Both the position numbers and the translations under genes were made by a program. The notes beneath the pieces are model-generated. The model was not told the origin of the DNA and did no database searches. It worked only from the letters and a program-made list of their open reading frames with translations. Of a stretch of DNA of 64,000 nt, positions 41,975 to 44,327 are shown in pieces. The stretch is from Janthinobacterium sp. 61 (GTDB lineage Bacteria > Pseudomonadota > Gammaproteobacteria > Burkholderiales > Burkholderiaceae_D). The stretch's first letter is position 1. Each line of letters begins with the position of its first letter. Location of the stretch: NCBI RefSeq assembly GCF_002846335.1, contig NZ_PJMQ01000001.1:3286001-3350000 (forward strand). Direction: 5' to 3'.

Positions 41975-43336
41975 GTGGACTCCAACAATCAAATCAAGCC
42001 TGACGAAATCGAGATCCTGATCGTCGAGGACAGCCCGACCCAGGCGGAGCGCTTGCGCCGCCTGATCCAGTCGCTGCACTACAATGCGCGCGTGGCGGCG
42101 AATGGCCAGCTGGCCCTGGCCGCCATCCGCGAGCGCAAGCCACACCTGGTGCTGTCCGATATCGTCATGCCTGAAATGAATGGCTACGACCTGTGCCGCG
42201 CCATCAAGTCCGACCCGACCCTGCGCGACATTCCCGTGATCCTCGTCACCTCACTTAACGACCCGAAGGACATCATCCGCGGCATCGAGTGTGGCGCCGA
42301 CAATTTCATCCGCAAGCCCTACGCGGAAGACTACCTGCTCAACCGCATCAGCCACATGCTGATGAACCAGAAGCTGCGCAAGAACCAGAACGTGGAAATC
42401 GGCATCGCCCTGTACCTGGGCGACCAGAAGCACTTCATCAATGCGGAGCGCCAGCAAATCCTCGATTTGCTCATTTCCACGTATGAACAGGCGGTGCAGG
42501 TCAACGGCGAACTGCAGGCGCGCGAACGCCAGGTGATCGAACTGAACATGCGCCTGGCGCACCATGCGGCAGAACTGGAAACCATCAACCGCGAAATCGC
42601 CCTGAAAAACCTGGAGCTGGCCGAAGCGAGCCGCATGAAGTCCGCCTTCATCGCCAATATGTCGCATGAACTGCGCACGCCGCTGAACGCCATCATCGGC
42701 TTCACGGGCGCGCTGCTGATGAAACTTCCCGGCCCCCTGACGTCCGACCAGGACAAGCAACTGAACACCATCCGCGCCAGCGCGCGCCATCTGCTCTCGC
42801 TGATCAACGACATCCTCGACGTGGCCAAGATCGAAGCGGGCAAGCTGACCCTGTCGATCGAGCCCGTGCACTGCCAGGAACTGATGGTTGAAGTGGCCGA
42901 CACCTTGCGCCCCCTGGCCCAGCAAAAGGGCCTGGCATTGGAAATGGCACTGGGAGAAGCAGGCCGCCCGCCCGCCATCATCGACACGGACCGCCGCGCG
43001 CTGACGCAAATCCTCATCAACCTGCTCAATAACGCCATCAAGTTCACGGAACAGGGTACGGTGCGCATCAGCCTGGCCCAGCGCGAGGAAGACGACGTGC
43101 TGGTGACGGAAATGAGCATCGCCGACAGTGGCGCCGGCATCAAGGAAGAAGACCAGGCCAAGCTGTTCCAGGCCTTCTCGCAGCTCGATTCCACCTCCAC
43201 GCGCCACGTGGAAGGCGCGGGACTGGGCCTGTACCTGTGCCAGAACCTGGCCAACGCCATCGGCGGCGCCCTGTTCTTCAATAGCGACTATGGCTCGGGC
43301 AGCACCTTTACGCTGGCCCTGCGCAGCAAACGCTGA
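41975..43336 (+). CDS. Hybrid response regulator-histidine kinase
   Basis: A 453-residue soluble two-component protein with an N-terminal receiver (phospho-acceptor D62 in LVLSDIVMPEMNGYD; IEILIVEDSPTQAER), a coiled-coil linker (about 165-220), a HisKA domain with H231 (NMSHELRTPLN) and a HATPase domain (LINLLNNAIKF; DSGAGI; GAGLGLYLCQNL). With no membrane segment or sensor domain, it is probably fed by another kinase through the receiver. It starts at GTG 41975, seven bases after GGAGAGG. The partner regulator is not adjacent. The small-RNA candidate follows the gene. Confidence 0.92.
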   Translation: MDSNNQIKPDEIEILIVEDSPTQAERLRRLIQSLHYNARVAANGQLALAAIRERKPHLVLSDIVMPEMNGYDLCRAIKSDPTLRDIPVILVTSLNDPKDIIRGIECGADNFIRKPYAEDYLLNRISHMLMNQKLRKNQNVEIGIALYLGDQKHFINAERQQILDLLISTYEQAVQVNGELQARERQVIELNMRLAHHAAELETINREIALKNLELAEASRMKSAFIANMSHELRTPLNAIIGFTGALLMKLPGPLTSDQDKQLNTIRASARHLLSLINDILDVAKIEAGKLTLSIEPVHCQELMVEVADTLRPLAQQKGLALEMALGEAGRPPAIIDTDRRALTQILINLLNNAIKFTEQGTVRISLAQREEDDVLVTEMSIADSGAGIKEEDQAKLFQAFSQLDSTSTRHVEGAGLGLYLCQNLANAIGGALFFNSDYGSGSTFTLALRSKR

Positions 43337-43408
43337 GCTTCTGTGCGACGCAACATAAAGTTTGATTTTTTGCCATCCATGACAAGTTCATACAGTAGTT
43401 TTACGGTA

Positions 43409-43437
43409 TTGCACCGCACCATTTTTAGCGCTATAGT
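43409..43437 (+). promoter_or_regulatory. Strong sigma-70 promoter of the candidate small RNA
   Basis: TTGCAC (43409-43414) and TATAGT (43432-43437) with exactly 17 bases between them; predicted start near 43444. No reading frame with a ribosome site begins before the terminator. Confidence 0.75.
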
Positions 43438-43443
43438 GGAACT

Positions 43444-43506
43444 GTCTCCTCCAATTCGTTCTCCGAACATTGGATTCGGCCCGCGCTAGTACGCGGGCTT
43501 TTTTTT
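43444..43506 (+). ncRNA. Candidate 63-nt small RNA with anti-Shine-Dalgarno motifs
   Basis: Between a sigma-70 promoter and a rho-independent terminator lies a short transcript of two hairpins. The first pairs TCCAAT (43450-43455) with ATTGGA (43469-43474) and GTTC (43458-43461) with GAAC (43465-43468), exposing TCC in the loop; the second is the terminator. UCUCC occurs twice: in the 5' tail and around the first loop, complementary to GGAGA-type ribosome sites. This suggests a base-pairing regulator. It could instead be a short terminated leader for the TetR gene downstream. No small-RNA family is recognised by eye. Confidence 0.65.
43479..43506 (+). terminator. Rho-independent terminator of the candidate small RNA
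   Basis: GCCCGCG (43479-43485) and CGCGGGC (43492-43498) with loop CTAGTA, followed by eight T residues. Confidence 0.92.
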
Positions 43507-43538: not shown

Positions 43539-43562
43539 TAACTAAATCAACCGATTTAGTTA
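43539..43562. promoter_or_regulatory. TetR operator palindrome upstream of the efflux operon
   Basis: Perfect 10-base arms TAACTAAATC (43539-43548) and GATTTAGTTA (43553-43562) around AACC. A second partial dyad, TATATC (43561-43566) and GATATA (43577-43582), follows. The site is 37 bases before the TetR start and probably covers the operon promoter. Confidence 0.8.
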
Positions 43563-43598: not shown

Positions 43599-44327
43599 AT
43601 GATTGAAAAAAACGCCATCCCAACTCCCCATGCCGACGACGGGCGCAAGCCCCGTTCCGATGGCGAGCAATCGCGCGAGCGGCTGCTGCATAGCGCCATC
43701 CGCCTGTTTGCCGAACAGGGTTACGCCAAGACCTCCACGCGCGAACTGGCGCAGGCGGCCGGCACGAACGCGGCAGCCATCAGCTACTATTTTGGCGACA
43801 AGGCGGGCCTGTACCGCGCCGCCTTTGTCCAGCAATCGTCGAATCCGCAAGACAATATCGCCCTGTACGAGCAGCCCCATTTCACCCTGCGCCAAAGCCT
43901 GGAAGGCTTTTATGCGCAAATGCTCGCGCCCATGCAGCAGGGCGAGATTGCGCGCGACTGCATGCGCCTGTGGTGCCGCGAGATGCTCGAACCGACGGGC
44001 CTGTGGGCACGCGAGATCGACCAGAACATCCGTCCCGAACACGAGGCGCTCACCCGCGTGCTGGCGCGCCATCTTGGCGCGCCCGACAACAGCGACGACA
44101 TGCACCGCCTGGCGTTTTCCATCGCTTCGCTGGCCCTGCAACACATGGTGGGCGCCGAAGTGCTGCAAACTTTGCGCCCGCAGTTGCTGGAAACGCCGCA
44201 CGCCATCGACACCTGGCTGTCGCGCATGACCGACTACGCACTGGCCATGGCCGAAGTGGAACGCCAGCGCATGGGCCTCCCCACTTCTACCACTACCGCT
44301 CAACGACAAGCAGAAGGACCAGCATGA
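43599..44327 (+). CDS. TetR-family repressor of RND efflux operon (CecR-like, DUF1956 C-terminal domain)
   Basis: A 242-residue regulator with a TetR helix-turn-helix (RERLLHSAIRLFAEQGYAKTSTRELAQAAGTNAAAISYYFGDKAGLYRAAF, about 25-75) and a DUF1956-type ligand domain (LQHMVGAEVLQTLRP near residue 195). It is the first gene of the efflux operon, and a palindromic operator precedes it, so it should repress itself and the pump and be released by a drug or metabolite. Its stop overlaps the outer-membrane factor start (ATGA). Start ATG 43599 is the first in frame after the operator. Confidence 0.9.
   Translation: MIEKNAIPTPHADDGRKPRSDGEQSRERLLHSAIRLFAEQGYAKTSTRELAQAAGTNAAAISYYFGDKAGLYRAAFVQQSSNPQDNIALYEQPHFTLRQSLEGFYAQMLAPMQQGEIARDCMRLWCREMLEPTGLWAREIDQNIRPEHEALTRVLARHLGAPDNSDDMHRLAFSIASLALQHMVGAEVLQTLRPQLLETPHAIDTWLSRMTDYALAMAEVERQRMGLPTSTTTAQRQAEGPA

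Follow-up and report, generated by a model that had tools for sequence, protein, structure and literature searches.

The locus lies within a 64,000-nucleotide stretch of the 6.0 Mb genome of Janthinobacterium sp. 61, which we call the window. Two genes on the forward strand flank it. The upstream neighbour (41975–43336) encodes a receiver domain and a histidine kinase (PF00072, PF00512 and PF02518), the downstream one (43599–44327) a TetR/CecR-type regulator (PF00440 and PF09209). In the gap between them, a -35 hexamer TTGCAC (43409–43414) and a -10 hexamer TATAGT (43432–43437) are present on the forward strand, with the exact 17-base spacing given in the preliminary description. Taken alone the -35 hexamer is weak, matching three of the six consensus positions, and a consensus promoter scan over the locus found no promoter.

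Just downstream of the -10 hexamer, a small RNA is predicted at about 43443–43506 on the same strand. Its first seven bases, UGUCUCC (43443–43449), are unpaired in folds and would form a single-stranded 5' seed. The first hairpin (43450–43474) is made by UCCAAU and AUUGGA, with an inner GUUC-UCC-GAAC, and the intrinsic terminator (43478–43506) consists of a hairpin (43478–43499) and a tract of eight T residues (43499–43506). The predicted transcript folds with −23 kcal/mol (z = −4.0), and none of 200 shuffled sequences folded equally well. No frame examined inside the sRNA region is plausible as a gene. The short predicted transcript of about 63 bases, the succession of hairpin and terminator and the lack of an internal open frame, as originally reported, are all borne out. 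Of the two UCUCC motifs that were said to be exposed, the one in the 5' tail is; the loop of the first hairpin displays UCC only, and half of the loci compared across genera (12 of 24) have a second TCTCC, so the 5' tail is the only firm seed. Between the terminator and the TetR gene, and separate from the sRNA, there is a conserved perfect inverted repeat with 10-bp arms (TAACTAAATC-AACC-GATTTAGTTA, 43539–43562), possibly the operator of the TetR gene.

When the whole window was run through cmscan, a single match scored above cut-off, to Rfam family RF02278 (Betaproteobacteria toxic sRNA). It covers 43443–43506 on the forward strand and model positions 1–64, with 52.6 bits against a gathering score of 50. 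As the match is full-length and exceeds the gathering score, the sRNA signal is not due to chance, and the segment looks like a genuine member of a known sRNA family. No existing family had been recognised at first; the RNA belongs to RF02278, the "double-hairpin RNAs" of Burkholderia. Two hairpins, the second being a terminator with a U tract, and a free CU-rich 5' tail are all found, as are several copies in the same genome (nine matches, eight over the cut-off). RF02278 matches were present in all 40 genus genomes searched (3 to 12 each) and in 107 of 116 family genomes (102 over the cut-off), against none of 14 control genomes. The Burkholderia authors noted a structural similarity of double-hairpin RNAs to the Neisseria NmsR sRNAs (RF02877), but the window sRNA scores only 24.6 bits against that family's cut-off of 52 and is not assigned to it. 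All other Rfam families considered (NmsRb, SorY, anti-hemB, OmrA-B and others) score far below their cut-offs.

Four double-hairpin RNAs, ncS03, ncS05, ncS27 and ncS62, have been described in Burkholderia cenocepacia, with targets predicted in carbon and amino-acid metabolism (PMC5688073). According to a review, ncS27 has an effect on the catabolism of phenylalanine and tyrosine and on carbohydrate transport. The window sRNA resembles these RNAs in its full-length covariance match, its two hairpins, its CU-rich anti-ribosome-site seed and the several copies per genome (PMC5688073); it differs from them in the inner GUUC/GAAC stem of the first hairpin, and in a promoter palindrome and a putative tie to a PAS-LuxR regulon. 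It is also like S17 of Bordetella pertussis, a 67-nt RNA with regions complementary to the ribosome sites of many genes, the 5' end of which is homologous to the RF02278 family according to its authors (PMC11722255). S17 depends on Hfq and was shown to repress one tested gene directly, and most genes that rise in its absence have ribosome-site complementarity (PMC11722255). The form named S17S arises through RNase E processing of a 190-nt precursor (PMC11722255), whereas the window sRNA has a promoter just upstream of its predicted 5' end. Papers citing the RF02278 work report that over-expression in E. coli inhibits growth, and S17 is not toxic in E. coli BL21 (PMC11722255). Toxicity thus does not extend to all relatives. 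Herbaspirillum is another genus of the Oxalobacteraceae. The RNAs Hsnc59, Hsnc63, Hsnc86 and Hsnc107 of Herbaspirillum seropedicae are RF02278 members, for which the source consulted describes no promoter site or regulator (PMC7011215).

Of 40 genus genomes searched with a 262-base query, 38 gave an orthologue-like match and two (G037 and G045) paralogue-like matches only. An exact search with the promoter and 5' end of the sRNA matched 16 named contigs, every one from Janthinobacterium. Synteny and conservation were analysed in 30 loci (that of the window and those of 29 relatives) from the 40 genomes. All 30 have the kinase gene before (88–100% identity) and the TetR gene after (77–100%). 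Mean identity to the window is 64% in the flank (43337–43391) and 91% in the sRNA, the variable part of which is the terminator loop. Conservation within the gap is highest (98–100%) in the -35, the -10, the 5' tail and the stem: five of the six -35 positions are invariant, all 30 loci have TATAGT, 29 have TATTGCAC and 30 have [TC]GTCTCCTCCAA. In the loop, GTTCTCCGAAC is kept in 26. Folding was done for 24 loci, namely that of the window, five other Janthinobacterium and 18 other-genus loci, with L175 left out due to an unmatched terminator pattern. Two hairpins and an unpaired seven-base 5' end were obtained in 24 of 24 (mean z −3.9); each sequence was folded singly, because a MAFFT alignment of the 24 sRNAs misplaces the variable loop, as judged by eye. 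Predicted hairpins and promoter are kept in relatives, as had been expected of a real sRNA. Family membership, the conserved promoter and tail, the folds and the published relatives together lend good support to an independently transcribed anti-Shine-Dalgarno sRNA.

An imperfect inverted repeat, ACAGTAG-TT-TTACGGT (43392–43407, forward strand), precedes the promoter and abuts the -35, its core GTANTTNTACNGTATTG being at 43395–43411; many relatives have the form ACCGTAG-TT-CTACGGT. This putative PAS-LuxR operator is the sole match within the window on either strand, allowing three mismatches, and is conserved here and at two other promoters. The pattern CNGTAGTTNTACNGTATTG, with at most one mismatch, was sought in 17 Janthinobacterium genomes: 16 have three sites each, and the remaining one, 82% complete, has two. 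These 50 sites compare with three matches to a reversed-pattern control. In the genome of the window, the site at 887779 is located before the gene for 3-oxoacid CoA-transferase subunit A (scoA; TIGR02429, above cut-off), in a gap from which a gene for a 188-aa PAS-LuxR protein diverges. The site at 4469053 precedes a livG-like ABC-transporter gene run, which ends on the same strand in a 3HB-oligomer hydrolase gene (PF10605; examined in this genome only). By eye, the three promoters share one layout: palindrome, TTG-containing -35, 17 bases and -10. Thirty operator loci of the genus were fetched and 28 parsed (L142 and L147 were not); eight belong to the sRNA, 12 to scoA and eight to livG, with none elsewhere.

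Across the family, the operator–promoter–sRNA unit (up to three mismatches) is present in 25 of 116 genomes and six of 44 genera, with no match to the reversed pattern; five further matches are the livG promoter, all in Janthinobacterium genomes. An order-wide sample of 300 genomes, 10 of them from the same family, had the unit in five, all of that family. Thirty core-site loci across the family, the fetched ones rather than a random draw, comprise 23 scoA/PAS-LuxR loci, six livG loci and one RF02278-like RNA (by eye). The sRNA arm was read in six genera and all three arms in two, namely Janthinobacterium and a second genus represented by a single genome (G091; L173, L212 and L250). A looser match at C1:393537 on the minus strand (L130) is a possible fourth operator site; by eye, the start of the gene after it resembles a GntR/MocR-type regulator. 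A relaxed fourth-site match was seen in four of six Janthinobacterium genomes compared (this one and three others). The CrbR/ACTU acetate motif (PMC5715377) was also considered, and its sites, such as TACTACCATCGTCGAAT, are unlike the palindrome by eye.

Of the 116 family genomes, 79 have a homologue of the PAS-LuxR protein (E up to 1e-20), and the 25 genomes with the sRNA unit are all among them. The exact core is present in 75 genomes, all with the regulator; that is, in 75 of 79 regulator-bearing against none of 37 regulator-less genomes, a co-occurrence that is partly built in because one site adjoins the regulator gene, and counted over related genomes that are not independent, so that the hypergeometric values calculated for it overstate the evidence. 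The reversed-pattern core gave five matches in the 116 genomes. One of the four regulator-bearing genomes without the exact core has a match at a contig edge. Thirty regulator loci were fetched from among the 79 genomes that carry the gene. In every one the exact core is in the gap between the PAS-LuxR gene and scoA; the core of L223 extends a few bases into the aligned start of the regulator. From these sites we infer that the PAS-LuxR regulator drives the sRNA. The position of the site and the weak -35 point to activation rather than repression, and the operator shared with genes of organic-acid uptake and breakdown suggests what switches the sRNA on.

It is also conceivable, if unlikely, that the sRNA and its action are as described here while the palindrome is bound by another factor, kinase-linked or another LuxR-type protein, so that the regulon would not concern ketone acids. 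The PAS-LuxR assignment is based on adjacency and co-occurrence only, and a kinase match is kept at nine of 19 other-genus loci with the unit; against this, no kinase match lies within about 1.5 kb of the remaining 10, the exact core is missing from every regulator-less genome and it stood beside the regulator wherever that locus was fetched.

The preliminary description had offered an attenuator-like leader of the TetR operon as the alternative. The RNA is indeed on the same strand as the TetR-RND operon and upstream of TetR, with a terminator at its end, and TetR follows it at all 30 Janthinobacterium loci. This explanation is nevertheless highly improbable, considering that at 15 of 19 other-genus loci with the unit no TetR match occurs within about 1.5 kb, that the terminator ends 92 bases before TetR with the inverted repeat (43539–43562) in between, and that the RNA matches over its full length a family described as acting in trans, to which the genome has nine matches in unrelated places. 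Just as little credit can be given to a degenerate or silent paralogue surviving only as the terminator of the kinase gene. The poor -35 would agree with it, as would the Rfam score, a mere 2.6 bits above gathering. Of the 19 other-genus operator loci, 16 were scanned; eight counterparts reach the RF02278 gathering score and eight are below, which makes the operator-bearing subgroup divergent and borderline for the Rfam model. A silent remnant is, however, difficult to reconcile with the near-invariant -35, -10, 5' tail and stem in the 30 loci, or with the existence of the unit in other genera, where over half of the loci have no kinase match nearby.

The tail of the predicted trans-acting sRNA, UGUCUCC, is fully complementary to GGAGACA. 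Blocking of GGAGA ribosome sites, as proposed initially, would fit the published relatives, and such complementarity includes the start site of livG, AGGAGACACGATG, found in nine of nine Janthinobacterium livG loci read. Of six livG loci read across the family, all have GGAGAC and four have GGAGACA. When 97 genes were ranked by duplex energy with the 5' tail (heuristic ORFs of at least 150 aa with uncertain starts, from the window and other stretches of the same genome), livG came 11th, which means that many strong ribosome sites compete and that livG is a good but unexceptional target; livG as the exclusive target is not supported. GGAGACA precedes a candidate start in four of these 97 genes. 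The ten-base complement GGAGGAGACA is found 2–10 bases before an ATG six times in the genome, against none for the reversed pattern; as this control is not ribosome-site-like, the six are candidates only. One of them corresponds to the antisense strand of an RF02278 copy. The other five precede genes for an ABC substrate-binding protein, a flavin monooxygenase-like protein, an XylR-like regulator, 4-hydroxyphenylpyruvate dioxygenase and a sugar-type ABC ATPase, candidate targets whose functions recall those reported for ncS27. In one other genus (L238 and L240), the ribosome site of scoA itself is GGAGACA, and the CoA-transferase may be an sRNA target there.

The eight other RF02278 matches of the genome are without this operator. 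They have the same or nearly the same seed and different promoters; same-seed siblings lacking the operator would probably report different signals. Six of them have a different palindrome, of the ATGCTGCAACGCGGCAT type, within 110 bases upstream (first spotted by eye; the search included some spelled-out variants). It is near the -10 region of these six (L009, L010, L012, L013, L014 and L015), and may be the shared upstream motif that has been reported in Burkholderia. Five RF02278 copies are clustered in 13 kb (C1:2184301–2197336), on one strand and between different genes (L047: 4302–4362, 9822–9882, 12465–12526, 14859–14919 and 17276–17337). Match coordinates show similar clusters in relatives of the genus, and in another genus a second copy is located 0.4–0.6 kb upstream of the operator-driven one (L170:983–1050 and L171:1171–1238).

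Taken as a whole, we consider it quite probable that the locus encodes a trans-acting RF02278 sRNA of about 64 nt, activated by the PAS-LuxR regulator, directed against ribosome sites and damping the livG run. Judging by the conserved sites, the regulator encoded beside the CoA-transferase gene would bind the palindrome abutting the weak -35, and would activate the sRNA, the CoA-transferase gene and the livG-like run together, the signal probably being the use of ketone acids or 3-hydroxybutyrate. The free UGUCUCC tail would then pair with GGAGACA-type ribosome sites, presumably with Hfq as in the published relatives. Such pairing would block the translation of many carbon-uptake and catabolism genes, an effect proposed or demonstrated in those relatives. 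With AGGAGACACGATG at its own start, livG would be open to this pairing too, and the sRNA probably damps the livG run as well, which would constitute an incoherent feed-forward loop.

In the literature consulted, no transcription factor is named as directly driving an RF02278 RNA, and no RF02278 RNA is described under a PAS-LuxR regulator or in Janthinobacterium; the S17 paper postulates repression of the S17 promoter by a factor that it leaves unnamed (PMC11722255). The new part appears to be the wiring, in which a conserved operator would tie an RF02278 member to a specific regulator, an unusually clean regulatory connection. More tentatively, and with chances that we put slightly below even, the three sites may form a three-armed regulon of the Oxalobacteraceae. 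One PAS-LuxR activator would turn on ketone-acid CoA transfer, an ABC transporter and an anti-Shine-Dalgarno sRNA that damps the transporter and silences competing carbon-uptake genes. This would be a carbon-hierarchy switch, with same-seed siblings wired to other signals. RF02278 RNAs are widespread in the family, and the conserved operator links one of them to a specific regulator and a coherent metabolic role. It also suggests a reason for the many same-seed copies per genome, which would have different promoters and overlapping targets.
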